From the NCBI RefSeq assembly GCF_018873765.1, contig NC_057925.1, positions 50,356,010-50,420,009 of the forward strand: a DNA stretch of 64,000 bases. Reading direction: 5' to 3'. A model generated the notes under the pieces. The model saw nothing but the letters and a program-made list of their open reading frames with translations, ran no database searches and was not told the origin of the DNA. The position numbers and the translations under genes are program-made. Below, piece by piece: positions 1,261 through 55,447 of this stretch (its first letter is position 1; the number at the start of each line of letters is the position of its first letter). The stretch comes from Telopea speciosissima. Taxonomy: Eukaryota > Streptophyta > Magnoliopsida > Proteales > Proteaceae.

Positions 1261-4200
1261 ATGGCTACAGAGGAGCTGAGTTCTGCAAAGAGGGTCGTTA
1301 TTGTTGGAGGAGGAGTTGCTGGTGCTCTTCTCGCAAAAACTCTCCAATTCCGTGCCGATGTCACCCTCATAGATCCGTAAGCTTCCCAATCTTTCTCTCT
1401 TACCGCTTCTTCTTATTTTATATGTAAGAAACACGAGAGGACTATGAAATTTGATGAGAATCATAAGAATTTTTGCTTAGATTTTTTTTGTTGTTCCTAA
1501 TATTGAAAGTGATTGTTCGAATTGAATTTTGTACTAACGGTGAGGTGATATTCGACAAATATTACCAAGTTTTCTCCAAAGTTTCATGCGTAATTTCAAG
1601 CTTATGGAAAAGTTTGAATTCATTGAAGCTCTTAATGTTGCATTTGATGCATTTTTGAATTCATTGAAGCTCTTAATGTTGCATTTGATGCATTTGTGTG
1701 TTGAATTTTCGTCGGCGTTTTAAAACCTGAAAAACCTATCGCATTCCACTATGTAGAATTTGAACTAGATCTGTGAGAAATCCAATCTGAATGATACATT
1801 TCCAAGATATTGACCCAATGAATGTAGTCAATTTGTCTGTGTTTCCCCGAGTGCTACATACCAGCTTGGTATCAGAGGACGAGAGAGTGGAGAAACTAAA
1901 GGAGAACGTTAGTACCCTCCAGGAAGGCCAACATCAAATCCTCTCCAAACTCAACGAGTTATTCGAGAGGCTAAGTGTTCAACGTACCAATACTGTGTTT
2001 GAGAGGTGAAATTTCATGAGCATCAACTCAAAATGAAGAAGCTCGCCCTCCAAATTTACGGACATCCAACTCTCAAAGGACGACTTTTGCACCCAAATTG
2101 GTCAAATTGGATTTCCCTCCCTATAAAGAGGATGAAGATACAACCAGTTGGATGTGCTGAGCCGAGCAGTTTTTCATCTTCCATTAAACGTCCGAGGAAG
2201 AAAGAGTGTGTTGGCATCATTCCACTTGGAGGCAATGCCGAACTTTGGTGTCAACTTTACAAGCAGGATGTTGGAAGCACATTGTGGCAGAATTTTTATG
2301 AAGGGTTGCACACCTGATTCGGTCCCACTCAGTTCCAAGACTTCTTTGGCGAGTTGGGGAAGTTCCAACAATCCAGTTCTATCCATGACTATCAAGAAAG
2401 ATTTGAAAAAATCTTATCCAAGGTGGGGTACCTCTCTCCTGAGCTCCAAGTGAACTGCTTTGTCAGCGGACTAAAAGATAGCATCAAGGTTGATGTCCTA
2501 GTTGGTTGCCCCACAACCTTATCTGCAGCTATTGGATTGGCTCGACTATACAAGCCCTGCGATCACTTACTTGAGAGAAAAAGCATTCCACCTAACATAG
2601 AACCTCTTCCCGTTCATTGACTCATGTCAACAGAGATGCAAGAAAGGCGGGCTAAGGGACTTTTCATGCCTAGACATCGATCAAGAAATTGTTCTTGATC
2701 GAAGGTTGTTACGAAGAGGAGTACACGTGGGAAGATCAATGTGATATTCAACAAAAATTTCCATCTTACGGTCTTGAGGAAAAGACCAAATCTAGCAGGA
2801 AGGATTTGTTACATACCACTGGATTGATTCAATGTGAATTGGATAGTCAATGTATAACAACTTTGAATATGCATGAAATCCATTTGTGTCAAGTCTACAC
2901 AGCTGGGTTCTGGTCCATTCATAGATGAAGTGATGTGCTTACCTTGTAAAGTTAGTAGCCTTTATCAGTCAATAATTCCTAGTTTACCAGTATAGCTTTT
3001 GACTGGAAACTTATGTAGTATAATATGGCAACCGGGGTCCTAGTGATATTAATTTGTAGAGGTTCTATGGTATAAGCTAGAGATTGCACAATTTTGATGG
3101 CGCAGGTTCTCTACCTTGTATTAATACTTCCTGATTCTCTTCATCCAAGTAAGCTGGAGCTGCCACTTACTGTTGTGTCATATGATCATTTGCTTATCAA
3201 TAAGGAGCACTGATATGATAAGCTTGGAAATCAATTAACATAACACAACACAAATGAAAAGCTTGGCTTTGGATAATGGGAGGTGCATATGCTGAGGGTA
3301 TTCCATGCTGCACAGATTGCCTTAACTTAGTGCTCAAAAAAGTATGTGTAATGAAGGTTATTGGTGTCACATAATCTAGCTTTTTGTAGTGTTCTTGAGT
3401 TTTTAGTGTCTTGGGAACTCTGCAACCTCAAATTGGCAGTGCAAATTCTCTTGATGTTTGTGCTTCAGTAATCTTAGTTATGCACTGGAACAGCTGAATA
3501 ATGATACAAGTACTTATGACATTCTCATTTCTGGTTCTTATAATCTATAATTAATCATCTGAGGCATCACTGGATGGAGTGGGTCTGTGACTAATGCTTT
3601 TGACTTTATTGTTGCTACTTTTGGATGAGAATCTTCGATATAATTTTAGAAGTCTAAAGTAGTAGGTTTCAGAAATCCAGAAAATAACTAGAATCGCAGT
3701 TACAGGTTTAGAAATCAGGTTTGAAGAGAAACCTAATATCAGGAGATCAAAAACTCTGATCTGGTCAAAAGGCTGGTCGAGTCCTTAATTTCAACAGGTG
3801 AACAATATATCAGAAACTGGTCTCAATCTAATTGTTAAATTCTCTTAGTTACTGAAGAATCCCACATGAAGTAGGAAACCACGGACTCTCAAAGGATATC
3901 TGAACAGTAATCAAATAAGTTCAGGTTAAGCAGAATGATGATAACAGACTTCAGTTATGCAACAAGCAGAAATCTGACATCAGGTCTTGAAAACAGTAAC
4001 TGATTTGAAGTTTCCAGAAATCAGAGTTGAAATACGTTTCTGAAAGCAACAAGAAGATCAGATTTTGAAAACTGGAATAGCTTAAGAACTTGATCCAATT
4101 AATATGTATGAAAATAGATCTGAAATCTCAGGTCCAAAACTAAATTTATTCTCAGCATAAAATCGTGAGAACAAAGATTCCAATCCGTAGATACTTGCAT

Positions 4201-7200: not shown

Positions 7201-10200
7201 TCCCAATTATGAAGAAGTCCGTTTCTTTCTGCAGTCACTGATCTTCAAAGTGTACCTTCTTCCTCTTTATTCTATGTAATCCTGTACTTCTTTCCGCCTA
7301 AGCCTTAAACACCTTCTTCCAATGAACAAGGTGATAGGTAGTCAGTCCCCTGCTCTCATCCACACCATTAGACATTCTTTTGAAATTTGATTCTGTTGAA
7401 CCTTATTAGCAACCAAAGCTGGAACAGTGGAAAGGAGAGATAGTGTATTTTTTTAATAAGTAAAAATAGCAATTCAGTATTATGGATGACATAGCACTTC
7501 ATAGAATTTTTTTGGGATCTATTTCAAATACTTTCTCTAATAAATATTCAGGTTTTGGAGTGACCTGAGAATAATATTTACTGACCTTTCTTCTTTCTTT
7601 CTTTTTCCCTCTTTATTTCTTTATAATTGCTTGTTGAATCAAAAGCCTGTGATTTATATTAGCATTTGCTTTGAATTAGTGTTCTGTTTTTTAACGTTTG
7701 AAGGAACTAAAAAGAATATCTTGATTGTTGATTGAAGCATCTATTTCCTGTATGGCATCTATCAAGGTCATACAGGAACATCTTCCTAAGTGGGCCATCT
7801 AGGAGAATCATTGCTGTAAATTTTCTTAGAATTTTATGCATGTACGTGTTTATTTTTCTTATCTTGCATTACTTCTCAAAATATTCTCAACTTCATCATC
7901 TTATAAAATTAGTCTCTACATAAAAGAGTGATAGAGCAGGGACTAAGCATCACTTCTGGAGAGATACATTCCATGTCTTAGGTGGTCCTTATATCTAACT
8001 TCAGGCCTTCATCTTTTAAAAAACTAGAGTCCTGCCCTAGGTTAGAAGTATAAATCTTAAAATATTGAGCTCTGGATCCTCAAGGTGTATTTGTTGACCC
8101 AATCAGATATTAGAAATCTTTTTTTTCAATTAGTTTGGATTCATTATAAAATAAACCCATTTGTCATTTTTTTTAATGGTCATCTTGCTGAAATATTCGA
8201 TATCTAATTAGGTCAATGTTTTGAACCCTTGTTCAAATGGAACAGTGGTTCAGAATGGCAAAGAGTATGGACTATCAATCTGTCACTATTGGTCAGAATC
8301 CAATGAACTCAGTTCAACTGTGCTGTACCTTTCTCTTTGGTTTGCTACTTTTCCTTTTTAATTTCATGCAGTATTTGTTACTGTGGGCAGTATTTGCTCC
8401 ATGTCCACATGATAGGCCCTGCTAGAAAATTCCCCCTTCTATGCATCCCCTGGTACCTGCCCTTTTACTTGAACAAAGTGACAGCTATGTCGTTACAACG
8501 GTTATTCACAATTTCAGTTAACTGTATTATCTTTCTAATGGCAGAATACCAAAAGATAAAATCTGCTGATTCGATTTTAATCATTGGAGGGGGTCCCACT
8601 GGCGTTGAACTTGCTGGAGAGATTGCTGTTGATTTCCCTGAGAAGAAGGTTACTCTGGTTCACAGAGGGTCAAGGTTGCTAGAATTCATTGGACCAAAGG
8701 CTTCTAAGAAGACATTAGATTGGTTGATCTCAAAGAAGGTTGAAGTGATTTTGGAGCAGTCAGTTGACTTGAACTCTGTACCAGATGGAGATGGGACATA
8801 TAAAACATCCGGTGGAGAAACTATAAGGGCTGATTGCCATTATGTTTGCATTGGTCAACCAACGGGTTCAGCCTGGCTAAAGGAGACCATACTAAAGGAT
8901 ATGTTGGATATGCATGGGAGATTGAAGGTTGATGAGAACTTGAGGGTTATCGGTCGGAAGAACATCTTTGCCATTGGGGATATTACTGACATTCAGGTAA
9001 TGTAACTTGTATTCTCCCATGCTTGTGTGAAATATAACTTGATTGGCCACAAAAGGCATCGTAGAGGCAAGCCAAGTCTTATTTTGGGAAGCCTTGGCAC
9101 ACAAATATGCGTGAAAAATTGTGCCTCTTGTGCTCAAAGTCCCAAACATGTAGCCTGGCTGGCCAACCTACTGATATTAACTATAAGTGTACAATATGTG
9201 AGTCATGTATTCTTCTTTTTCCCTTGCCAAGTAAATTTTCCATTGAGCTATTTACAACGAAATATTTCTTTCTCTGGGGCTAGAGCCAACTAGGAGTCTA
9301 GGAGTGTCTGCCTCATGTACAAAAAAACTATCGAAGACTTGGCTTTACAAGTTACTGAGTAGAGGATATACTGAGGTATTAAACTGTTCTAGCTGAGAAC
9401 AAATATATTATATACTTTCTAAGAGATGCAACAATCTCCAGTTAACCTGGAGAATCTTCCACATAAAAGATTTGATAGGGTAAGCATCAACCAGTAATCT
9501 ATAACTCCTGAAAATAGTTGGTTCCTTTTTGGACTACTCATTAACATGTGTGGTGAATTATTACCGAACCAAAATAGAGGTTAAAAATGGCATAACTTTC
9601 TAGATACCTATAGAGCTCTCAAACTAATTCTTGGTCTAGAGGACCTCCTAGACATGTTGCACCGTTTGTACCATATTGGATTGAAATTAATAATATAGAC
9701 CACCTGTCTAATACAGAGGAGGTACTCTCATACTAGTGGGACTATACAGTTTTTGTCCTCTGAATGAAGTTCAGGAGTGCATCTTTGATCTGGGGTTGCA
9801 AGACCCTTACATTGATCCAGAGCGATAATGGATTGAATCCCATTGTTAAATATGCATCATCTAGCGAATTGCTTGGGCCAAAATCAGCATGATCAAATGA
9901 CTTTTAGCCATCCCATCTGTATTATGTGGTGTTTTAGAAATTCCATCTCCCAAGTTGCATATGGTAAATGTAAATATTTGCAATCATTTCATCGTGCTGA
10001 TTCTTTGGTTAAGAAATCTTAAGCAGGAACTGTTCTGGAGCATATCCCAATCCCTTTTTCAAGAGACATGCCCCATATATGTGGGCCCAGACCAGAAAAA
10101 AATAAATAGTTTTCATATTTTTGTCTAGTAAATGTAAAATTATTTATGTTGTAGCATTTTCACTTATTCTTCAGTAATTTTAATGCCTTAATTATTGTTG

Positions 10201-15880: not shown

Positions 15881-16227
15881 CCATGATAGAGATGAAAGAA
15901 ACAAGTAGTAAAAACTAAAAAGACAGAGAGACAAGGGAAACGATGCAAGATATCTGTCTTGAAAAATAAAAGGGGAAGAGAGTGAATGACGGGGCAGGGA
16001 GATTTTCAACTGTCAGCCCCAACGGTTAAGCCGGTCCAGCCTTAACCATCAAATAGACCGGTTGAACCCAGTCTCCCAGTTATAGGTTCTCCTTCCGTTT
16101 CTTTCTCTAGGGTTTATCGAGGGGTTTACAGGAGAAAACATCGAAAAAAATTCCGACTCTTGCAAGCAAAGAAGCTGTTGATGAACAACAAAACCCACTC
16201 GACAAATTTTAGGTAATTTGTTCACTG

Positions 16228-17382
16228 ATGTTTTCTTTTTCTGTTATAAAACCTCTTTATTTCCTCAGCAGAGATGCAAAAACGCATCTCTGCGTCATTG
16301 AAAACCTTTTTCTCAAATCTTTTTCTAACATCTCAGAATCCGTAATCCAACCATCTCTGGCCATAGATTACCTTATAAATTCATGTGGGTTATCCCCAGA
16401 AACTGCTGCTTCTGCAGCTAAGAAAATCCATCGTAAGTTCCACACTACAGAGAAACCGGATTCTGTGCTCAAGTTCTTTGAAAGCATTGGTTTTTCAAGA
16501 ACCCACATCACAAAGCTCGTCTCCATGAAGCCCAAATTGTTATTTTCTTCTGTGGATAATACCCTCAAGCCCAAGTTAAAGCCATTCCAAGATTTGGGTC
16601 TATCTGGTTCGGAACTCGCAATAGTGATTGCTTCAAATCCAGGTATCCTAGTTAGAAGCCTAAGAACCCAGATAGTTCCCAGCCTTAAGGTCATTACAAG
16701 CTATGTTGGGACGGGTAAGAATATATTGAGAACATTAAAGCGCTCAAGATGGCTACTTTCAGCCAATCCTGCAGGAAGATTGCAGCCCAACATTGATATC
16801 CTGAGGAATCAAAATGTGCCCGATTCAAGAATTGCTTACCTGATGATGACTCAACCGGGGAATTTGTTGATGAAGCCTGATCATATAAAAGAAGCAGTTG
16901 AGACCCTCAAGGGGTTGGGCTTCAAACCTGAGTCAAGAATGTTTACTGTGGGAATTCACATCTTGGGTTCGATGAGCAAATCTACTTGGGAGGCAAAGAT
17001 CAAGTTGTTGAAGGATTTGGGCTGGTCTGAAGAGCAAATTTTTGCTGCCTTTAGGAAATATCCTATCTACATGTCATGTTCAGAGAAGAAGATGAAGCTA
17101 GGAATGGAATTCTATGCAAATGCCCTCAATTGGGATGCTTCAGTTGTTTCAAAACATCCAAAGCTTCTAATGTTCAGCTTTGAAGAAAGGATTATCCCCA
17201 GATTTGAGGTTTGGAAGATGTTAATGTCAAAAGGGTTTGTTTTGAATAAGCAGGCGAATTTGGTTACAGCATGGAATATGTCCGAGCAAAATTTCTTGGA
17301 GAAGTATGTGGAGAAGTATAAGGAAAAAGTTCCTGATTTAATGAAGGTGTACAAGATGCAGAAAATTGGGATGGTAAACTGA
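16228..17382 (+). CDS. mTERF-family protein (organellar nucleic-acid-binding)
   Basis: A single-exon frame of 384 residues, as is common for the expanded plant mTERF family. The N terminus (MFSFSVIKPLYFLSRDAKTH) is rich in basic and hydroxylated residues and looks like a mitochondrial presequence. From about residue 50 the protein is a run of mTERF repeats: alternating helices with the LGLS/LGW, 'P.lL..s....LkPkl..l.dlG' pattern, for example KPKLLFSS, NPGILVRSL, KYPIYMS and KHPKLLMFS. Known members bind organelle DNA or RNA and act in transcription, splicing or translation; which of these applies here cannot be told. The start is the first ATG of the frame. It stands alone with no operon-like neighbour. 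Confidence 0.88.
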   Translation: MFSFSVIKPLYFLSRDAKTHLCVIENLFLKSFSNISESVIQPSLAIDYLINSCGLSPETAASAAKKIHRKFHTTEKPDSVLKFFESIGFSRTHITKLVSMKPKLLFSSVDNTLKPKLKPFQDLGLSGSELAIVIASNPGILVRSLRTQIVPSLKVITSYVGTGKNILRTLKRSRWLLSANPAGRLQPNIDILRNQNVPDSRIAYLMMTQPGNLLMKPDHIKEAVETLKGLGFKPESRMFTVGIHILGSMSKSTWEAKIKLLKDLGWSEEQIFAAFRKYPIYMSCSEKKMKLGMEFYANALNWDASVVSKHPKLLMFSFEERIIPRFEVWKMLMSKGFVLNKQANLVTAWNMSEQNFLEKYVEKYKEKVPDLMKVYKMQKIGMVN

Positions 17383-20029: not shown

Positions 20030-20430
20030 GTTGGAAGTATGTCCATCAACCCTTTTATTTAAATTAAATTATTTAATTTGTTTAATTATTTAGCGTGATT
20101 TATTAACGGGCTTTGGTAGTCCTTAAGTTTTAACCTAAATTTATTCACGACTAGAGACGGGACAGGACTTGACACCCTGTTTATATGGTTGTCGCACTGT
20201 GTGCATCTGGAAATGAATATTTTGGACCACAAGTTCAAGTGTACATATAGTATATACATTGAATCAGACCACATGAGAATTTCGCATGTCTGTTACTGCC
20301 ATTTAGTGAACACAACTATATGTAATCTTATAACAAGTGTACATCTCATGTACAAGAAATTTCCATACCTCCAAAACATGTGAATATGAGATGTTCATGT
20401 AATTTTCAAGCCCCAAAACATAGGAACATC
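20030..20430 (+). mobile_element. Ty1/copia-like LTR fossil, left part
   Basis: It starts with the LTR-type TGTTGGAAGTATGTCC. Over about 260 bp it matches, in inverse orientation, the LTR whose TG end is at 29566 (shared ttttaacctaaa..ttcac/ttcat and tagtccttaa words). It is interrupted by an L1 and a SINE-like retroposon, and probably resumes at about 22680. It is a broken fossil, older than both insertions. Confidence 0.6.
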
Positions 20431-20484
20431 TTTTTTCTTTTTGGATTAAAGGGAGCTTATATTAATAAAAATTTGAATAAGGTA

Positions 20485-20805
20485 TTACAATCTGTAGTAT
20501 TTCTTTCCATTGGCATCATTCCTTATAAGTGTGGAAAGTGCCACTGGAAGGTTGTCAACACAAAGATGGATTTCTTGAAAGGAATGTAGGAAACCCGCCA
20601 AGAAGTCTGCACAACAATTGATCTCTCTCACGTGGTGCGCAAATAATACCCAAATACAACCTGCAGCAAATGCATCATAGTTGTTAACACACTTCCACCA
20701 TCTACAGAACGTCCGATAGCAAGCGTCAAAATTAATCGGCTACACAACACGACATTTACCAGGTTCATTAATCCCCCTGGCAGTCCATGATCCAAACTTA
20801 ATCAT
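20485..20805 (-). pseudogene. ORF2 remnant of the L1: start joined to RNase H tail
   Basis: ATG at 20805 opens like other L1 ORF2s (here IKFGSWTARGINEPGKCR). After an in-frame stop near 20740 the same frame resumes and reaches the RNase H end HHVREINCCADFLAGF and the stop at 20485. The start and the tail are in the same frame, as they are in the second copy at 28518-28760. Confidence 0.75.
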
Positions 20806-20942
20806 TTAGAAGGTGGGGGAGGGGAGCGCTGCGAGGGGTTGCTCCGTCTTGGACTACGACCACGCTCTCTAACGACTGTGGAGACAATCGTATCCATATT
20901 GCAAGAAGTCTCTGTCATCGTTGGGTCACGTAAGGAAGCAAA

Positions 20943-22294
20943 CTAATTCCCCAAAGGGAGGTTCAAAGAGGAAGACGCAGGACTGGATTTTGTCGCTTCA
21001 ACTGGTTGCACAACAGCACCATTGGAGAGTGGAGACGACGTCAGAACCATAGCAGCAGTTCTAGCGCCGTTGATAGTGTTGCATGCAGCATTGACAGTTA
21101 TAGCCAAACCACCAGAACGATAGTTTGGCGCATGTTTATCAACGCCATGCAAGTCCACAACCTTCTCTTTCCCACATCCAATATAAGGCTCCACAATTTT
21201 GGCACTCTTTTCAAACCCCCCATTTTCGCACTTGATCTGCCATTAGTGGGGGGAGTCGTGCCCCCTTTAGTAGAAATCACACTTGTAACTGTCTTGTTGG
21301 CTATAGCAGTTGGACTCGCCTTTCTATGAGGAAGAGAGGGTTCCCCCGCCGGCAGTTGTGAATCTGGCACCACCGGTGGGGTTGCAGCCACTGGTAGAGG
21401 GTGTTTTTTTTGTCCCCTTCGTTTAGAATCTGATTGCCAATGTTCCTCAACCTGCATTGCATCAACTGGTTGAACCTGATCAAGTTTCTATTTTTGATTT
21501 GCAACATCCTGCGAACATGCGTTGTTACTATGGCCAAAGACTTGACATAAACTGCAAATTGGGGGTACCCAATCATATTCAACTGGTTGCTCCAGAATTC
21601 TACCATCCTCTAAAGCAATGGTGATAGAAAGGGATAATCCAGCTGCAACTTTGATCGAGACACAGAATCTTGCAAATGATAGGCGCTCACGTTGTGATGT
21701 ACGCCTGTCAGCACAGATCGGTTTCCCTAACATGCTTGCAATTCGACCCAATGATCGAGGCCCCCAAAAAATGGAGATTAAGGCCATATAGTCTGACCCA
21801 TAATGGGAGTTCTGCCTCCTCCTTCTTGGACATAGAAACATCAGGGGACCAAGGTTGTAGGATAATTGGTCGAGTTCCCAACGTCCAAGGGCCTCATCTA
21901 GCATTTGTCAACTTAGTTCAATGCCCTGGAAATCAAAGAGAAAAATACCACTTTCTAGACCAAAAACTTCAATTTCCCCTAATGAGACCATTTCTCCTTA
22001 ACAAATCTTTTTATGGTGGAAAAGGATGGTTTAGTTCTAAAGACAGCCAACAATCGCAGCCTCCCACCTATCTTTTTTGTCTAATAAATCTTTAGCAGTG
22101 CAGCATGCCACTTTCTTACCATCAATGAGAGATGGTTCAACAAAAGGGATATCATCAGCCCCATCCCTTACTTGGCCTCCAGAAAAGAGGCTTACCCACG
22201 ACTGTTGTGGATCCATCCTCCCATCACCACCGGCAACAACTTGGGAGGTTGGAACAATGTCATGAGCCACCGGGTTAGGAACACCGGTGGCCAT
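20943..22294 (-). pseudogene. L1 ORF1 (DUF4283 and CCHC zinc knuckle), broken
   Basis: It starts MATGVPNPVAHDIV. The region FVEPSLIDGKKVACC..DLLDKKDRWEAAIVGCL and RSLGRIASMLGKPICADR are typical of the DUF4283 nucleic-acid-binding domain of plant L1 ORF1. A zinc knuckle follows, CSLCQVFGHSNNAC (C-X2-C-X4-H-X4-C, near 21530). The frame shifts several times (between 22037 and 21904, and again after 21488), so no full-length product is possible. In the family, ORF1p coats the element RNA. Confidence 0.8.
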
Positions 22295-22387
22295 GAAACG
22301 TGAAAGAGAAAATATAGAAAAAAGCTTCGCACTTCAAACTTCACCAAGGATACCTATGTTCCATATGAACATCTTATGTTCATGTTA

Positions 22388-22666
22388 ATTTTTTTTTTTT
22401 TGGTAATCACACAAAGCACACGCTAATCCTAAAAGGTTAACCAACTTTTGGGATCGAATGGTGGATATACACAACACACACTACACTCACACACCCAATG
22501 TGGGATTAAACCCATGCACCCAATGCACATGGTGCAATGCATTTTTTTGGTAATCACACAAACTACACGTCAATCCCAAAAGTTTAACCAACTTTTGGGA
22601 CCACGGAATGATGAATATACACAACACACACCCCAATCACACACCCGATGTGAGACTAAACCCACG
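22388..22666 (-). mobile_element. Dimeric SINE-like retroposon with perfect 13-bp target duplication
   Basis: Two related units of about 125-140 bp lie head to tail (about 22400-22540 and 22550-22666). Each ends, read on the minus strand, in gtgtgattaccaaaaaaa. Each contains cccacatcgggtgtgtg-like and ccaaaagttggttaa words. The whole is flanked by tatgttcatgtta at 22375-22387 and 22667-22679, without mismatch. A-tails and a target duplication around the pair show that it moved as a dimer by retroposition. The 5' part has no obvious pol III boxes to my eye. Confidence 0.72.
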
Positions 22667-22679
22667 TATGTTCATGTTA

Positions 22680-23097
22680 TTTTTCATGCCCCAAAACATC
22701 ATCCCAATATTAAATCACATTTAATTATAAGTATTCTGGTGTCCTTAGGCCCACAAGTGTTTAAATCTCATGGGGGACAACCCCCTTATTTGTGCCAAAT
22801 ATTCACCTAAAGTTATGTTTTTTTTGGTAACACCTAAAGTTATATCATATCTCTTAAAATATGCAAGCCCAACTTGCAAGCCCATTAAAATATCCAAATT
22901 CTTATTTCAAAAATACTATATTATATGGGTCCCACCTAGTCAAAACTAAGGTTTGTGAATAATCAAGATTTAATAACCTATAATTTCCAAAGTTTACTAA
23001 CCTTATTGTATATTTTAGTGGGCCAGCAAAGAATGTACACATAATGGGAATCTAATTAATGATTTCATAAATTATTAATTAGGGGAAAAGAATGTTG
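22680..23097 (+). other. Probable continuation of the interrupted LTR fossil, then A/T-rich spacer
   Basis: The words tgttcatgttatttttcatg and gccccaaaacat at 22669-22700 repeat those at 20392-20420, just before the L1. The old LTR-like sequence therefore seems to resume here. The end cannot be fixed, and nothing else is recognised. Confidence 0.45.
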
Positions 23098-23260
23098 CCT
23101 GGTTACAGACGGTGCACGGTTCATGCGCCTAGATAGATGGCTGCACAAAATGACCGCCATGCCCCCATGGAAAGGAGGAAATCCCTGAGGGTGCGATAGT
23201 CATTTTGCGCGGTCTTGTGTCTAGGCACAGGAGCCACACACCACACGTGACCAAGTAGCA
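23098..23260. mobile_element. Foldback element, GC-rich hairpin family
   Basis: The left arm (tgcgcctaga...ctgcacaaaatgaccgcc, about 23123-23165) is repeated inverted in gtcattttgcgcggtc...gtgtctaggcacagg (about 23190-23233). The core around the loop (aatgaccgcc) is shared with the hairpins at 40877 and 45135. Confidence 0.6.
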
Positions 23261-23367
23261 TTCTCTTACCTTATTAATTATTAGAGTTTAAAGCTCTATG
23301 GAGAATATTAAATAAAAGAAGCTGGTGACTCAACCATTTGATCACCTGGGTTGGCAAGAATTTATGG

Positions 23368-24734
23368 GATTTTTATCTGCTCCATTACTGACACGCTCCA
23401 TTTTGCTCCATTTACCTTGTAGATGGTTGACACATGGCATATTTAAATTCAATTGTTAGATTTGAGTTATGAGTTTTACCCATCCAATCCTAACCTAACC
23501 TGAGTTAATTACCCAGTCTCTCTCCTCTCTCTCTGCAACCCATAATCTCTCCTCTCTTTATGCAACTCCACTTGCAACACTGCCCCCTTCTCTCCTCCCA
23601 CCTCCGCCCTTACCCATCTGAAACCCTCGGCGAAGAACAAAGAAGAAGAAAGTCAGCCAGTTGCTAGCCCCCATTTTACGCTTCGTCGTTTGACCAAAGG
23701 TCTCTACTTCTTCTTTTGCTTCATCGAATCGGGGTTCTAATGGCTGAAAACACTGAAGTGAAAAGTATGGCAGAAGCTGAGAAGAAGAAAGAGCTACATA
23801 CAACATCATGGCCTACTCATCTGATTTCATTTTATATCTAAGTGATGTGGTCACCAATTTTTATTCAATGTCTCCAGATAAATGTTCTAAAGGTTATAAA
23901 GAAGTGGGAAGTAGTTTGGAAAACAAGAAGAAAAGAGAAAGAAAACAAAGGAAAGTCTACAGGGAGAAGTCCCTTAGAACACGTAAAATAAATGGATTAA
24001 GAGGATCACAAGTTCATCTTTATTCATCAGTTGTCCACAAGTTGAACAGAACACAAGTTCATCTGTTCCAAACCCATCTTGTACTGCCAACACATCTCAA
24101 TAAAGGCAATCCAAGCCTGAGCTCCAAAACTTCAACCCCTGCTGAATAAATGGATTAAGAGGATCAAAGGAGATAAAAAAAAAAAAGAAAAAAAAAGGAG
24201 AGATTGGTCGCTGCCGCAGTTGATTGGGTCTTCTCCCTAGGGCAACTCAGATCCTAGGTCCCTAACCTCAACTATCTCCTCTATCATGGGATATTAATTT
24301 GAAACTAGACCTGACATTCCTTCTTCCGCCAGACCCAGGTTCATATCCATCAATCCCTCTTATTGCAGGTTTTCTCAATTTGATTTGTAGCACTGCTGGG
24401 AGGATTGGTAGTTGCGATTCACTGCCTGAAAACCCACATCGATTGAGTTCCTCAAGAGGGAGATCCCATCTTGAATCACATTCCTCGTCTCCGAGAGTTG
24501 CAGCAGAGAGAAAAAGAGAATAGGTTAGAGTTGGAGGAGGAGAGAGATGAGGGTTGGATTTGAAAACCGTTGTTAGGATTAGGATTGGTTTGAAAACCAT
24601 GGTTAGAATTGGGTTGGTTAGATTTTGAATGATCTTTATTTTTTACGATTGGATTTAAAGGTGTCATGTGTCGACCATCTAAGGGATAAATGAGGCAAAA
24701 TGGAGCATGTTAGTAATGGAGCAGATAAAAATCC
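23368..24734. mobile_element. Mutator-like element (non-autonomous) with 76-bp TIRs
   Basis: Terminal inverted repeats begin ggatttttatctgctccatt and extend about 76 bp (left 23368-23443, right 24658-24734) with roughly ten mismatches. The flanks are gaatttatg (23359-23367) and gaatctatg (24735-24743), a 9-bp target duplication with one change. Nine bp and long TIRs are the Mutator hallmark. The 1.2-kb interior has no transposase. It contains a gene-like start (ATG at 23740, AENTEVKSMAEAEKKKE) behind a pyrimidine-rich leader, which could be a captured host exon. A 22-bp direct repeat (aaatggattaagaggatca) lies at about 23990 and 24147. Confidence 0.75.
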
Positions 24735-24743
24735 GAATCTATG

Positions 24744-25309
24744 AGGCTTAATATATACTATTTGGTCACCTTAAAACATCTTTTAAATAACAACATACTA
24801 AAGCCCATATCATGTTTTATGTTTAAGCCAATGCGGGCTTAATTAAAGCACTTTTAAGTGTCACATGCATGATATAAATTCCAGTTTATATGGGTTATAA
24901 TTAAAACACTTTTAAACTAAGCCCATATAGTCAAAAAAAGTTCTAAAATAAATTATTTTTATTTTAAAAACCCAAACTCATATGGCTACAATATAACCCA
25001 CTCATATGACAACTTAAGCACATTCAGGCTCCCCATGTATTAGGCCCATGTGGGCTTAACAAAAACAAACACATAACTACAGGAGAGGGGCAAATGTGTT
25101 ATTTCTTGGTAGAGTTTCATAAGTCCTACCCTTCTCTTCTTCTTCTTCCTCCTCTTCCCCTAGTCGCCACCAAACCTGCTACTCATTTGCAATATTTTTT
25201 TATAAATGCAAGAGGATGGTCATGACTCGTAGCCGACAGTGAGAGTCACCAACCAACGACCTAGGCCCACCATCGCATAGCAAAAAGATTCGGCAATCGC
25301 AGGCTCTGG
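24744..25309. other. A/T-rich spacer
   Basis: Repeated 'agcccatat' and 'cacttttaa' words and pyrimidine tracts, with no ORF of note. It is possibly degraded LTR sequence but cannot be assigned. Confidence 0.4.
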
Positions 25310-27363
25310 CCTGGTCCCAAAGCCAGCAACCACCAACGTTGGGAAGGGCGTGGGGCATGAGGTAAGGAAGGGGTAAGAGGTGTTGAGGAATCGCAGGTGT
25401 TTGGGGCTACCAAACTTTACCATGCAGGCTCCCCTTAAGAGGTGCCTTGTGAGACAGCTAAGTGGGGTGGTCATGATGTAAGGAACAATGTGGATTTTCA
25501 TTTTTATTTAAACTAAAGTTGCATGTCAAACCTACAACATTACCTTTTTCTCGCTAAAAACAAAAATGATATTGTTCCTTACATCTGATTGTGTTTTTCA
25601 CATCTTTTGTTTTTAATTAAAAGCAAAGGGAAAAGGTGGGCATATTGTCGGGATTGCCGCCTTATGTTTATCTCTCTTCTACCCCCCATGGAATTGACCA
25701 CCTTGTCTCTCCCATCCCAACCCGCCCACTTACCTAAAGCGAGCGCTGGACCCAACCTCTGTCAAAAAGTAAAACAACTACATTATTTACTATTAGTTTA
25801 TGTGACCCCAACCCCATGCTAAACTTTCCTATTTTAATATGCATAGGAGCCTCTAACCCAAGTCCAAATTCTTATGGTTGAACCCTATGCATTTTGTTAG
25901 ATGGACATTTTGTTTTGGTAGCTACATAAATTTTAATTGCAATGGATAGTTTGGAGGTCGTATTTTTTTGGTCTTTTGCAAGGGCTAAAACATGCAAAAA
26001 GTCTTTATCTCAACATCAAAGAAGTTAAGTGTAACAACAAAGATATATGCTCTCTTAAAAGTTCCAGTCGATACCACTTGGCCCTGGAACGTTTTACCTT
26101 TGCTTCTCCAACTATCTGATGTTACCATGAACTTAAATAATTTTATTTTATTTTATTTTTTGTCTTTTTTTGTTTTTAACAAATTAACACTGCCTCATTG
26201 ACCAGGAAATTTGTTTCTCATGCAATATTGAGAAAGCATAATTTTGTATATTTTGAAACACATGTATCTTTTGACTCCTTAATTTAATATATAAATTCAT
26301 TAAAAAAAATTACATTATTTCGTGAATTGTAAAATGTTACTTTTTCTCTCTTTTTTTTAATAAAACAAAACATTATCACAACTCGATGAACATTGATGTT
26401 ACTTTTTTGCCTTATATTTAAAAAAAATAATAAAAAATGAAATACTAGGATCAAACTATGCAATAAATAATCAAATAAACATGAAAGTCCCCCACCGGTA
26501 GGGGAGGCTCTGATAACTATTGTTGGGTGACAGAAGATCCCACCAGTGAGGATGACCATTCGAAAATTTGTAATCATACACAAAAGAGAAATTAAAGTTA
26601 CTTATAGCCTCACAAGTGCAAGGCCTCCACAGAATTTTATCCCTTCCACAATCGGTTCTTTCCACTACTGTAGCTTTTCATTCCGTCAATATTGGCCACC
26701 AACGTCAGGAGGGGCGCGTGGCATGGGAAAGGAAAGGGAGGCAAGGGGTGCTGAGGAATCGCAAGTGCTTGGGGCGGCCGAGCCTTATGATGCGAGTTCC
26801 CTTACGGGGTACCTTTTGAGGCAGCTAGGTGGGGTGACCATGATGTAAGGAACAATGTGTGTTTTTCCTTTTTTTTAAACTAAAGCTGCAGGTCAAACCT
26901 GCAACATTACTTTTTTCTGATTAAAAACAAAAATGATACTAATCTTGTAAGAAATAGTGTGTTTTCAATTTTTTTTTCAATTAAAAGCAAAGGAAAAAGG
27001 GTGGGCATGGTGCCCGGGTCCTCGCCTTGTGTTCATCTCTCTCCCACCCCCATGGAAAGGACCACCTTGCCTCTCCCATCCCACCCTGCCCATTGGTCAA
27101 GGCTGCCCATTTACCTGAAGCGAGCGGCATGCCCAACCTTTGCCTAAAAGCAAAACAACTATATTTTTTTGTGAATTGTAAAAGGTTACTTTTTCTTTCT
27201 TTTTTAATAAAACAAATCATTATCACAATTCGGTGAACACTGATGTTATATTTATGCATTACATATATATTTTTTTAAATAAAATACTAGGATCAAACTA
27301 TGTAATAAATAATCAAATAAACGTGAAAGCCCCCCACCGATAGGAGAGGTTCTGATACCAATT
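25310..27363 (-). mobile_element. LTR-retroelement fossil, duplicated internal and LTR-end segments
   Basis: Two related blocks lie in tandem: 25310-26690 and 26697-27530 share aggaatcgcaggtg, catgatgtaaggaacaatgt, aattaaaagcaaagg and later words in the same order. Each block ends in a reverse-complement primer-binding-site-like string (ctctgataact / ttctgataccaat) directly followed by an LTR edge TGTTGGG (26523 and 27364). The element therefore reads on the minus strand. No gag or pol protein was recognised. Broken fossil. Confidence 0.55.
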
Positions 27364-28041
27364 GTTGGGCGACGGATCATCCCACTGGTGGGGATGGTCG
27401 TTCAAAAAATTTTAATCATACACGAAAGAGAAATTGAGGTTACCTGTAGCCTCTTAAGTGCAAAGCCTCCACATAGTTTTAGCCCTTCCACGACCGGTTC
27501 TTCCCACTATTGTAGCATTTCATTTCCGTCAACGTTAGCTCCCTCCAAGAACCCTAGGGTTTCACATACCCCTATATTCAATTTCATATACACACACTAG
27601 GGGGAGGAAGAGAGGAGCTCGATATTTGGAGAGATGAGAGAGATTGAAATTCAAATGGAATCAATTCTCTAAGGAGAGAGATTTAGTATATCATATAGAA
27701 GCCAATCACCAATATCTCCTAAATTATTTTTTTATGGATCAAATTCAACTATAGTATGATTTAGTTATATTTTGAATTGTTTGAATTCACAATTCAAAAG
27801 TATAGAGAAAAGATTCCATGCTACCTCATCTTCCAAATGTTGATATGAGATTTAATTTCTCATCAAAATTATCATCTATTGGATATAATCCAAAAGGCTA
27901 TGACCAATAATAAACATGCTACATAAATGGATTGAACCAATAGGAAAGGGGTAGGATCCTATTGGGATTACACCCAACTTGCCACATGTCAGGTTAATGC
28001 AGCATTCTACAGTGTGATATTTATCAACATGTACACAACCA

Positions 28042-28815
28042 CCCAGAGTGCTTGATAAGAATGTTTTGAAAATTAAACCTGTAACCACCAAGTCGACAAG
28101 TACTTTAGTGGTTACAAGTAACAGCAAACAATTGAATCAGGGTCCAACTAATGGTTCGGTTTTGGTGGTTGGTTCATCGGTTTCTCCAGCACCAAGTGAT
28201 GGGTCTGCCTCTGTTAAACGAGTGATCCCTCCTACTCACGTTGAACCTGTGCTGGACACTTTGCCTCTACATACAGATGGAAGGGAAGGGGATACTGCTG
28301 AAAGGAAAGGGGCTTCGCAACAGCCGAAACCTGCAGTTCAGAGAGGTGAGATGTTGATGGATGCTCCACTCTGTTCAAATCGGTTTGCGGCTTTGGCTCC
28401 AGCGGAGATAGCTTAGTGTGTTGTTGGTGGAGAGGCTGCAGTTCCCCCTGTTAGAGTACGCGATAGAAGTCCGAGTCGGAGCGGCTCGTTGCGACGCTCT
28501 TCCTAGCCTAAATCCTCATGATTAGGTTCGGTGCATGGAATATCAGGGGGATGAATGCCCCTGGTAAGAGGCGGGCAATATTGGATTGGGCTTCTAGCAA
28601 TCATTTAGTTTTTTTTTGGTATTTTGGAGATTTGTGTACGTTCTTGGCTAGGTTTTTGCACTCCACACAGGAGATATCTCTTTGTATTGACTCTCTTCCC
28701 ACAACCCTTTCTCTACTACTGCAGAATGCTGCTAGGGGGAAGAAATATCTAAGAATATAATTCTCTACTGGTAATTTATAATATATAAGCTCCATTTTAA
28801 CCAAAAAAAAAAAAA
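28042..28815 (+). mobile_element. 5'-truncated, ORF2-less L1 LINE with 14-bp target duplication
   Basis: A 774-bp plus-strand L1 flanked by catgtacacaacca at 28028-28041 and 28816-28829, without mismatch, and ending in a poly-A run (28803-28815). It carries the C-terminal third of ORF1 (28048-28416, ending LCSNRFAALAPAEIA), a short gap, then an 80-codon frame. That frame joins the ORF2 start to the RNase H tail. Its 3' end (ataagctccattttaacc) matches the L1 at 20431. It sits inside the LTR fossil, so it is younger. Confidence 0.85.
28518..28760 (+). CDS. Open 80-codon remnant of L1 ORF2 (start fused to tail)
   Basis: The N-terminal part IRFGAWNIRGMNAPGKRRAI is the canonical beginning of plant L1 ORF2, the first strand of the endonuclease domain. 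After VFFW it changes directly to LARFLHSTQEISLCIDSLP...GKKYLRI, the end of ORF2. The frame has no stop. Catalytic residues of the endonuclease and reverse transcriptase are absent, so no enzymatic activity is expected. It may simply be a relic. Confidence 0.7.
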   Translation: MIRFGAWNIRGMNAPGKRRAILDWASSNHLVFFWYFGDLCTFLARFLHSTQEISLCIDSLPTTLSLLLQNAARGKKYLRI

Positions 28816-29566
28816 CATGTACACAACCAAGCAGGTGTAACAAAAATTTCTCAATTTAACCATAAGGAATGTGTGTATTCTCATAACCCCAATGTATAGA
28901 AAATTCTTTTCTAGAAATTCTATAATTTCAATTGGTTAGTAAAATCATTTCAAAAAATGTTTGTGAAAATAAATATTAATTTTGAAAACTTTGCAAATAA
29001 TTTACCAAAATGCAACGGGATCCAAAATTAAGTCCAATTAATTACAAATATTTTCTCTCATTAATATTCCTTCAATTAGGGTAGTGGATTCAATGTTGAC
29101 AGTTTCTTTAGAATGCGGCCAAACACTACGAATCTAGTACATCAATATATAGTCAAGGAGACGTCAATTGTTGGTGTGCCAAAACTCACAATGTGTGACC
29201 GCATCGATAAAGACCCTTCAAAACAAAGGAACCAATTATACACTACTGACGAAAATTTCATTTTAATTCAACTATCAGTAACACACATGTAAAATTTTCA
29301 TATGATTTGATTTTTTTTTTTTTTGGTAAAACGTATGATTCGATTCAATATACAAACCATATGTACATTCGCACTTATGTCTTGGAATCTCTATTTCTAG
29401 GTACACATAATACAACGACTATATGCATGAAATGTCCAACCCTGTTCTTAATCATGAACAATTTTAGGTTAAAATCTAAGGACTACCACGCTTGACCGTA
29501 ATTAAATCATGCAAATTTATTTAGATATTCTATATAAATATGAATTTGATAGATGTATTTTCAACA

Positions 29567-30126: not shown

Positions 30127-30372
30127 TATAATTCCACCCCCTCCCCAGTCCCCACCCAAAAACAATATTTTTCTTCTCCTCCTCCGTCAAACTGGTTCAT
30201 TCTCATATGAATTGAACTAAGAAACACATCTCTGCAGGATTTTATTTCCACCAAATTGTGAAGGATAACACTCAAAGAACTATTCTCTGCTATGGATTTG
30301 GATTTCTGTTAAGAGGACTAGACGACAAGTATTCAGTGTTGTCTCTTCCACAAGGGAGTGAAGAGAATTAAA

Positions 30373-31239
30373 ATGGGATCATTAGCAACTAATTTCTTTG
30401 CATTTTTCTTCTTATTCCCAATTGGAATTCGTCGACTCCTCTGCGCATTCTCTCTCTACCTGAAGAACCCATGCGTCTACAGATCAAAGACATGGTATAT
30501 GTCAGAACCCAGATGGAAAAATATTGATTTATACGTCCTTCTTATTGCCCTTCCCATTGCCTCATTCTCCGAGATTTTCTTCTTCTTGACGTTCTCTGGT
30601 CATTCGACGTATCGATTCGCTTTCATTCAGCAAGCAGCAGTTGTTAGTCTCTTCTGGGTCCTCGTCGTTTTGGTGATTCTCCGAGAAAACATCGACCCTT
30701 TTCTTATGCACGAAGGTCTTGTCTATGTTTTCGCTGGCATTGCATTTCTCATAGAGTATTCGCTGATGGGAAAGGGAATTACAGGGCTTGCTGGTCGTGT
30801 TTATGAATTGTTAGGTGCGCTCACGCTCTTATGTGCTGCTGCTTGCTTTTACCTTTCCTTCCGGCCTACAGCGTTTTTCGCAGAGGTGGGTCTATCTTCA
30901 GGTATTATTTTCAAGGGGACTTGGGTTTTGCAGGCTGGGTTGTCCTTGTACTCTGACACCTTCTCATTGAAGGGTTGTCGTAAGATCCCATTTTCTCCTG
31001 CTCAACTGACCACTGATGTTCAATGCGATCTGGAAGATGATAGGTTGAGAGGTGTGGCTCTGATGAATCTACTGTTTGTGTTACATTTGATTGGTATCTT
31101 GACCATGAGTTTCAGCTTGTTTGGGGCTCTATCTTGGAATCGCAACTTGAGATGTGGGGAGGGGGCTGGTCCGTCACTGGCAGATGTCGAATCAGAAAGT
31201 ATGTTGATGCGCCCACTTCCTGAATTTGAGTTGGAGTAG
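30373..31239 (+). CDS. DUF716/TMEM45-like multi-pass membrane protein
   Basis: A single-exon gene. The in-frame ATG at 30373 is preferred over the one at 30358 because family members start with MGS followed directly by the first hydrophobic helix; this gives 288 residues. Several strong membrane segments are visible, including FFAFFFLFPIGI, LYVLLIALPIASF, AVVSLFWVLVVLVIL, LVYVFAGIAFLIEY, LLGALTLLCAAACFYL and LLFVLHLIGILTMSFSLFG. The HEGLVYVFAGIAFLIEY block and the W.LQ.G motif (GTWVLQAGLSLY) are typical of DUF716. The C-terminal tail is acidic. Molecular function is not established; some plant members have been described as virus-response related. Localisation to the endomembrane system is an inference. 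Confidence 0.82.
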   Translation: MGSLATNFFAFFFLFPIGIRRLLCAFSLYLKNPCVYRSKTWYMSEPRWKNIDLYVLLIALPIASFSEIFFFLTFSGHSTYRFAFIQQAAVVSLFWVLVVLVILRENIDPFLMHEGLVYVFAGIAFLIEYSLMGKGITGLAGRVYELLGALTLLCAAACFYLSFRPTAFFAEVGLSSGIIFKGTWVLQAGLSLYSDTFSLKGCRKIPFSPAQLTTDVQCDLEDDRLRGVALMNLLFVLHLIGILTMSFSLFGALSWNRNLRCGEGAGPSLADVESESMLMRPLPEFELE

Positions 31240-53320: not shown

Positions 53321-54572
53321 ATCACGTCGAATACACAAATTTGTCAGCTGAATAGAATCGAAAGGACCACGACCTCCAACTCTAACTTAATTGTGTTCTT
53401 AGTTATTGTTCTCCAGCTTGTGGCCATAAAGATGGACTGTCCAACAAGGAAAAAGAAGCAATCTTTCATCTCTGGCTTTATTTTGTTTCTTTCCAGAAAG
53501 GAAAGCCTGACCAATTTGAAGTTGCCGCATGGGCATTCTAATTATCAGATTTCATTGATATGGATCAACTCGTCAAAATGAAAGCAGATATATAAGAGAC
53601 TGATAATTCCCAAACATGTAATATATATTTAATAGACATGGAGCCTTTGTAAGTTGTCTAGGTTTCTGATAACTTCATGTGATATGTGTTGAAATGTTCA
53701 CACACCAAATACAATCCTATTGCACGAAGCGCCACTCCATGGCTTCTGGTATTTTTTTCTTTTTTGTGGTGTACTGATGTTAGCATGTAATATTTCTTTG
53801 AATTGTTTCCTGGGACAATATATAATTGGTTGCCTTTTCTTTTTTCTTCAATTCTGAGAAGTATTAAAACAGAGGCAGAACAGAAATTCTTCTTAGGATC
53901 CCTCGAGTTTATGCAGATAGGTAGTACTACTTCCATAATTGGGAGCCTTGCTGGGCAAACCCAATCATCTGCTTTTGTAACTGGTATCTCCAATCAGGTG
54001 GTGAATTCCAGTGCAGATCGATCTGTTTTTTTTTTTTTTTTTTAATTCGTTCACAGTAGAATTAAAAGAATCTTTTTTTTAGAGTTGGGGGCCTTGGGCT
54101 CAGTAGGCAGACCTAGAAACCAAGCCGATCCCAACCAAATACTTAAAGCTGTTCATATTACTTTGAAAGGGTTAGGGTTGCTGTTCACATGCCGAAAGAG
54201 GTACTGTTTTTAAACGTTGGCAGACTTTCATCATGTGCTTACTAGGTCCTGTGACAAGTTGCAGTTTTATAGAACTATGCCAAATGGCAAAAGAAACTTT
54301 TTTTTTCTTCTTCTTCTAAGAAATCAAGAATAGTATAAAGAACTGTCTTTTTTGGACCAAGGCTCAAAAGTGCTTTACAAGTTGGGCAACGGCACTGAAG
54401 TTGAGACTAGTTCCCATTTCAGCTTCCAGCAATATATGATGTCATGCTCAAGTTGAATCAGTTTGTGAGCTTGGTTGGTCCTTTATGTCAAACCACATGT
54501 CAGAGAAAAGCATCTATGGGTGTTTATGTAAAAATCTATGTAGAATAGATTTCAATTTCTACCAAAAAAAAA
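53321..54572. other. 3' flank and spacer
   Basis: 3' UTR of the preceding gene, then A/T-rich DNA with T-runs near 54027-54044 and 54299. A frame around 53810-53993 is open on both strands but matches nothing I know. Confidence 0.45.
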
Positions 54573-55447
54573 TGAATAGATTGGAATCAAGAGGTTTTAA
54601 GTTAAGCAGAACAAAGACAGAATATATGATGTGTAACTTTAGTCAAAACAGGAGAGGTGATGAAGTGGTGAAACTTGAAAAGCAGGAGATACCACAAAGT
54701 GAATGCTTTCGATATCTGGGGTCAATCATTAACAAAGAGGGGGATATAGAGGATGATGTGTCCCACAAAATTAAAGTAGGGTGGATGAAGTGGAGAAGGG
54801 CATCGGAAGTGTTATGTGACAAATGTATGCCCGTTAAGCTTAAGGGGAAATTCTACAAGACAGTAATAAGACCAGCTATGACTTATGGGGCAGAATGTTG
54901 GGCAGTAAAGAAGAGTAATATAGACAAGATGAGTGTAGCGGAGATAAGGATGTTGAGGTGGATGTGGGGCAAGACTAGAAGAGATAGAGTAAGGAATGAT
55001 TGTATTAGAACCGATTTGGGAGTTGCATCAATACAGGACAAGCTCTGTGAGAGCCGATTGTTGTGGTATGGCCATGTCCAACGGAAACCCATGGATGCAC
55101 TAGTAAGGAAGAGTGACAAGATCCAGCTTGACGGAGCTAAAACAGGTAGGGGCAGACCTAAAATGACTTGGAGAAGTGGTAAGAAAGGATATGCATGTGG
55201 TAGGGCTCAATCCTAGTATGACCGTAGATAAAGTTGTTTAGAGGACAAAGACCCGTGTAGATGACCCCTTGTAGAGGATTGTTCCCAGGATGCTGCTTTG
55301 ACTACTGCTTCGACGTATATCCTTACTTATTTTCTTAACTCCCTTTTACTCTTTTTATTTCTCTTACTTCCATTACTGTCATAGCATCTATCGGATCCAT
55401 GTAGCCGACCCCATTTAGTTGGGATAAGGTTATGGTTGTTGTTGTTT
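54573..55447 (+). mobile_element. RTE-clade LINE, 5'-truncated
   Basis: An open stretch encodes the end of an RTE reverse transcriptase and its C-terminal region: RLESRGFKLSRTKTEYM, FRYLGSIINKEGDIEDD, YKTVIRPAMTYGAECWA and LRWMWGKTRRDRVRND, then GRGRPKMTW. From about 55165 the frame shifts and continues in another frame (NPSMTVDKVV..). The 3' end is the typical RTE tail gccgaccccatttagttggg then gataaggttatggttg, with (TTG)n to 55447. Possible but weak target duplication: tctaccaa (54560) / tttaccaa (55452). Most of the element is missing, and it was recently active enough that the protein is well preserved. Confidence 0.88.

Follow-up and report, generated by a model that had tools for sequence, protein, structure and literature searches.

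The genome of Telopea speciosissima contains L1 elements that have lost nearly all of ORF2, including the endonuclease and the reverse transcriptase, while keeping ORF1, both ends of ORF2, and the 3' end. These half-L1s are a real and recurrent HAL1-like phenomenon in a plant. We give a probability of roughly 80% to the reading that they are HAL1-like, non-autonomous L1s that arise repeatedly and are mobilized in trans. We observed that single joins between the two ends of ORF2 recur in separate insertions, which are truncated at various 5' points and carry target duplications and A-tails. We also observed full-length relatives, more than one origin, and an excess of in-frame joins. The deletions arose many times, from different full-length L1s, and some of the deleted forms then multiplied via target-primed reverse transcription. 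Because ORF2 is missing and the 3' ends are shared, we infer that half-L1s move with the ORF2 protein of other L1s, most simply of full-length elements with the same 3' end. They would use their own ORF1 protein, and their RNAs may be favored when translation of the ORF2 remnant can continue as far as the native stop, close to the 3' end. Elements of the HAL1 kind are already known in mammals; what is new is that more joins than expected are in frame.

The window is a stretch of 64,000 nucleotides (C10:50356010-50420009) with two half-L1s, copy 1 and copy 2, on opposite strands (Table 1). The genome that we searched for relatives comprises 823 Mb in 1287 contigs. Only the best candidates were scored in each search, and the resulting counts are lower bounds.

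Table 1. Positions of the two half-L1 insertions and their parts within the window.
Feature	Positions	Strand	Basis
Copy 1, half-L1 insertion: broken ORF1, fused start and end of ORF2, 3' end, A-tail	20433..22361	-	sequence, alignment
Copy 1 target duplication, A-tail side	20419..20432	.	13/14 bp matching
Copy 1 target duplication, 5' side	22362..22375	.	13/14 bp matching partner
Copy 1 fused ORF2 remnant, 107 codons including stop, internal stop at codon 22	20485..20805	-	frame kept throughout
Copy 2, half-L1 insertion, 5' side cut inside ORF1, A-tail	28042..28814	+	sequence, genome search
Copy 2 target duplication, 5' side, ACATGTACACAACCA	28027..28041	.	sequence comparison, 15 bp exact
Copy 2 target duplication, A-tail side, ACATGTACACAACCA	28815..28829	.	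sequence comparison, 15 bp exact
Copy 2 remaining ORF1, two stops, end overlapping ORF2 start	28042..28520	+	reading-frame inspection
Copy 2 fused ORF2 remnant, 80 codons plus stop	28518..28760	+	open frame 28518-28757

An earlier note on this DNA had described A-tails, target duplications, and shared 3' ends for both copies, and all of these are confirmed. It also had both copies keeping ORF1 and the two ends of ORF2. The ORF2 ends are indeed present; copy 2 is truncated within ORF1, and the ORF1 part fits its longer relative L009 better. In alignments, copy 1 and copy 2 are 71% identical over 119 bp at the ORF1/ORF2 boundary and 68% identical over 176 bp at the 3' end.

The start and the end of ORF2 do lie in one frame in both copies, as had been proposed, except that the join of copy 2 (28641-28646, within the microhomology TTCTTG) is itself out of frame relative to the local ORF2 frame. 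This is compensated by one extra T in the T-run at 28609-28617, so that the reading frame is shifted over the codons between the T-run and the join. The 80-codon fused frame was correctly described as open.

Three insertions have the join of copy 2: copy 2 itself, L009 (C4:19151744; 94% identical to copy 2 across all 774 bases), and a shorter relative, L011 (C6:59611245, ~59.61M). L009 starts ~1.97 kb before its A-tail, copy 2 starts 0.77 kb before it, and L011 starts ~0.3 kb before it. One join in three insertions with different start points implies a small amplified family; the earlier note had named copies with the same join as the sign of such a family. L009 has a target duplication of 15-16 bp and an ORF1 of 432 open codons with a DUF4283 domain (Pfam). 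L011 has one more T than copy 2, which puts it out of frame, and we looked for a target duplication around it and found no convincing one.

Copy 1 differs in this respect. Its main join, at ~20643-20648, is absent from all of the relatives found in the genome searches, and as far as we have seen, copy 1 does not belong to a family amplified by retrotransposition. A second deletion at ~20746-20752 (57 bases net) also preserves the frame. Despite both deletions being in frame, the fused frame is closed by the stop at codon 22. The nearest half-L1 relative, L029, is cut at another site, out of frame. At 22391-22660, just past the target duplication on the 5' side of copy 1, there are by eye two similar stretches of ~120 bases, each of which opens with a T-run and TTGGTAATCACACAAA.

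Elsewhere in the window, the region between the two half-L1s (25372-27524) contains direct repeats of 62-248 nt that are 71-85% identical, with spacings of ~842-847 and 1365-1381 bases. We also take a stretch around 26500 and 27350 to resemble an LTR end with a primer site. An open frame of 258 codons (54440-55216) has no Pfam match; it is presumably the end of the reverse-transcriptase protein of another type of LINE. Pieces of host genes at 8307-9005, 16213-17382, and 30322-31239 have Pyr_redox_2, mTERF, and DUF716 domains, respectively.

Full-length L1s with the same 3' end had been named as further support for a half-L1 family, and we found four. L025, L039, L040, and L041 have a full-length ORF2 and share the 3' end with the half-L1s, and L025 has RVT_1 and RVT_3 (Pfam). 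All four of these copies have frame breaks when read, and there is no intact donor among them. Among the half-L1s, long open stretches of ORF1 are present in L009, L010, L014, L023, L034, L035, and L036, and the DUF4283 domain (Pfam) is found in L014 as well as in L009. We take a DUF4283-type ORF1 to be the plant L1 type. The half-L1 relatives are L1-derived and keep ORF1, and ORF1 is broken in both copies in the window.

To gauge frequency, we used DNA searches with ORF2 starts, which gave 41 matches (best 40 of 54 candidates) and 33 matches (31 of 31 scored). Half-L1s account for 30 of the 41 and 11 of the 33. There are at least 64 distinct ORF2-start loci: 38 are half-L1s, and in 26, ORF2 continues past the usual join. 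Nearby reverse-transcriptase matches served to class four of the latter (C11:51686061, C9:16735231, C5:26216885, and C11:42507246). L044 was classed by an ORF2 that runs past the join together with a reverse-transcriptase match ~5 kb further on. One locus, L048 (C5:27055150-27056700), has two tandem ORF2 starts ~255 bases apart, with endonuclease sequence after the second.

The best case of amplification is family A, which has a single join at eleven places (L012-L020, L022, and L024; the last was assigned by alignment). The join corresponds to positions ~4014-4023 and 7953 of L025. A join-spanning search, for the best 40 of 111 candidates, returned the same eleven places. Members are 70-76% identical to copy 2 and ~80-96% identical to each other, among those compared. 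They have different 5' start points, and most are fragments of ~420-820 bp. Target duplications are clear for five of the eleven (L012, L014, L016, L019, and L020); L017 has one of 11 bp and L013 has a weak one, and we sought them around L015, L018, L022, and L024 and found none. Overall, clear target duplications are present for these five members, both copies in the window, L009, and L010.

Differing 5' starts identify separate insertions in family B (L021 and L023), family C (L031, L032, and L033), and family E (L036 and L045), and differing 3' flanks do so in family J (L066 and L067). L042 has the same join as family C, for which the evidence of separate insertion comes from the three members above. 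Amplification by retrotransposition is therefore found in families A, B, C, E, and J and in the family of copy 2. The two members of family H (L030 and L053) have a join in common, and family I (L060, C6:37124251, and C5:17194022) comes from the match table only. Family D (L034 and L035) was considered as two insertions and rejected: the flanks match, which makes it one duplicated insertion. Its two copies (C4:46.80M and C4:46.93M) are ~131 kb apart and are 95% identical over 2.2 kb.

We compared 29 joins from loci that were picked by DNA match, with frame not a criterion; L066-L069 and L077-L079 were picked for the half pattern in the match table. Three half-like places (C8:20464198, C10:37501215, and C6:68014183) lie outside this set. 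All 29 joins are downstream of ORF1, and in all 29 the 5' cut in ORF2 is within the first ~240 bases (~15-240 kept). In 28 of the 29, the other side is within the last ~370 bases of ORF2 (~20-370 kept), and both the endonuclease and the reverse transcriptase are lost. The exception is L026, which keeps ~1.35 kb of the ORF2 end, with zf-RVT and RVT_3. The deletions remove ~3.7-4.1 kb of ORF2, or 2.8 kb in L026.

Twenty of the 29 joins are in frame: those of families A, B, C, D, E, H, I, and J, copy 1, L010, L037, L043, L046, L047, L050, L051, L062, L068, L069, and L079. The other nine are out of frame or broken before the join (the family of copy 2, L026, L027, L029, L052, L054, L073, L077, and L078). 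Frame was judged beside the join; even where a family is in frame, an individual copy can be broken by a later indel or stop, as seen in D, L033, L051, and others. In L027 and L073, the join is in frame and a one-base indel lies upstream; counting them as in frame gives 22 of 29. In L073 (C3:27009000-27010200), a further short segment from the start of ORF2 lies inside the join, between the two ORF2 ends, as a double jump of the copying enzyme might leave it.

Against an expectation of one third, the binomial p is 9.4e-5 for 20/29, 3.4e-6 for 22/29, and 4.1e-4 for 18/27, where L010 is merged with L037 and L043 with L051. Against 0.35, these values become 2.0e-4, 8.5e-6, and 8.0e-4. We also computed a null from all possible joins in such ranges of L025, L040, and L041, which gave 0.33-0.36 in frame for microhomology of at least 0-3 bases; at longer microhomologies it scatters between 0.14 and 0.39, with small counts. 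Open frames are not significantly more common in multi-copy than in single-copy cases: 8/8 versus 13/21 if H and the restored family of copy 2 are taken as open (Fisher p = 0.066), or 7/8 in the multi-copy cases if the family of copy 2 is counted out (p = 0.37). The excess of in-frame joins is clear across all joins, with no demonstrated tie to copy number.

The ORF1 tree, which has 18 rows, intermixes half and full copies: the state changes five times, and well-supported branches force at least four of these changes. Copy 1 groups with L029 (98/91), and this pair falls within a group that includes full-length L041 (100/100). L036 groups with full-length L025 (99/97), and L027 groups with full-length L040 (96/95). 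L009, from the family of copy 2, groups with the half element L010 (100/100). A single clade of every half copy is rejected (p-AU = 2e-56), so the idea of one half-L1 lineage is abandoned. The alternatives offered with it were independent deletions or a lineage that went on shrinking. Several origins are borne out, and shrinking is possible only locally, for the family of copy 2 and L010, which have nearly identical 5' breakpoints.

We had considered L010 and L037 as one family because they have the same join. However, a tree of the two ORF2 ends rejects a clade of L010, L037, and the family of copy 2 (p-AU = 5e-6), so we counted L010 and L037 as two joins and also give the merged count. An identical join can arise twice, or can predate what the ORF2-ends tree suggests.

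Why would so many joins be in frame? We tentatively propose that a half-L1 RNA needs ribosomes to pass from the start of ORF2 to its native stop, and does not need a specific peptide. Stopping there might let a nearby ORF2 protein be captured in trans, and for that reason only near-complete, in-frame excisions might tend to found lineages, and do so repeatedly. In the consensus of family A, the stop codon of ORF1 and the start of ORF2 overlap, which would fit termination and restart of the ribosome.

Another possibility, which we also hold at well under even odds, is that half-L1s are passive passengers: their RNA would be copied via the 3' end, as for SINEs, and ORF1 and the frame would be irrelevant. 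Family A mostly consists of short fragments, and its substitutions give some support to this. In the fused remnant, the shared substitutions are 29 nonsynonymous and 10 synonymous; at the end of ORF1, they are 27 nonsynonymous and 10 synonymous, with one stop. In the absence of selection, ~27-30% would be synonymous, so the amino-acid changes look neutral. On the other hand, passengers would not explain why 20/29 joins are in frame or why all 29 are downstream of ORF1. Also, dN/dS for L009 versus L010 is 0.35 across ORF1 and 0.19 in the DUF4283 part, which reflects selection in the half state only if the two had one half-L1 ancestor, as their nearly identical 5' breakpoint suggests. Within-family pairs have dN/dS of 0.6-2.2, the range to be expected of dead copies, which leaves these tests with low power.

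If the fused ORF2 remnant were a working small protein, this would account for the in-frame excess and for the many copies in which the fused frame is open. We consider this unlikely. Neither the copy 2 remnant nor that of family A has a Pfam match, and that of family C yields only a sub-threshold trace of RVT_3 along with an equally weak and implausible Flu_NS2. L079 has lost all but about six codons of the ORF2 end and is still in frame. Together with the neutral-looking changes in family A, these results suggest that any constraint may be on the frame or on the position of the stop rather than on the peptide. We withdrew a case for selection on the fused peptide (L010 versus L037, dN/dS 0.21), because their divergence may date from full-length ancestors, and family A shows no such selection.

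Ordinary decay, in which full-length L1 insertions later lose ORF2 by private genomic deletions, is very unlikely. It would suit copy 1 and several others, each of which occurs once and has a private join, and family D, which is one insertion duplicated with its flanks. There is also a precedent for internal deletions linked to microhomology in single LINE copies: one paper (PMC2861651) describes Hebe, a bdelloid LINE, in which such deletions of 12-200 bp inactivate single copies. The plant deletions resemble these in their microhomology, but they span ~3.7-4.1 kb (2.8 kb in L026) and some of the deleted forms were re-amplified. Decay is refuted for families A, B, C, and E and the family of copy 2, each of which has one join and different element start points, and for family J, where the 3' flanks differ; the excess of in-frame joins also argues against it. 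Finally, half-L1s could stem from L1 RNAs that were spliced and then reverse-transcribed, like the human SpIREs, which are RNA-derived, integrated L1 copies that are shortened internally (PMC5860796). The plant joins do retain both ends and lack an internal stretch, but this reading is barely credible: the joins of SpIREs are at splice sites, the three of 29 plant joins that we viewed by eye (the family of copy 2, L010, and L036) have no GT-AG, joins differ among families, and the join of copy 2 lies inside a microhomology.

We therefore return to recurrent, HAL1-like L1s that are mobilized in trans. The comparison with HAL1 had been drawn in the earlier note, and it is apt. The primary paper on HAL1 is reportedly that of Bao and Jurka in 2010. 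As described in PMC5753468, HAL1 of mammals is a non-autonomous L1 derivative that kept ORF1, lost ORF2, and had several independent origins, and the plant half-L1s are also non-autonomous, keep ORF1, and arose several times. In contrast to HAL1, the plant elements have a DUF4283 ORF1, a short and usually in-frame fused remnant of ORF2, and small families. They are not HAL1 in the strict sense of descent from a mammalian L1, given the DUF4283-type ORF1.

A limited and partial search of the literature found no report of half-L1s in plants. If they are general in plants, then half-L1s would be a recurrent outcome of L1 evolution beyond mammals, and their joins would reveal, as a natural experiment, which parts of an L1 RNA are required for copying by another element's enzyme. 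The joins would thereby bear on cis preference and on movement in trans.
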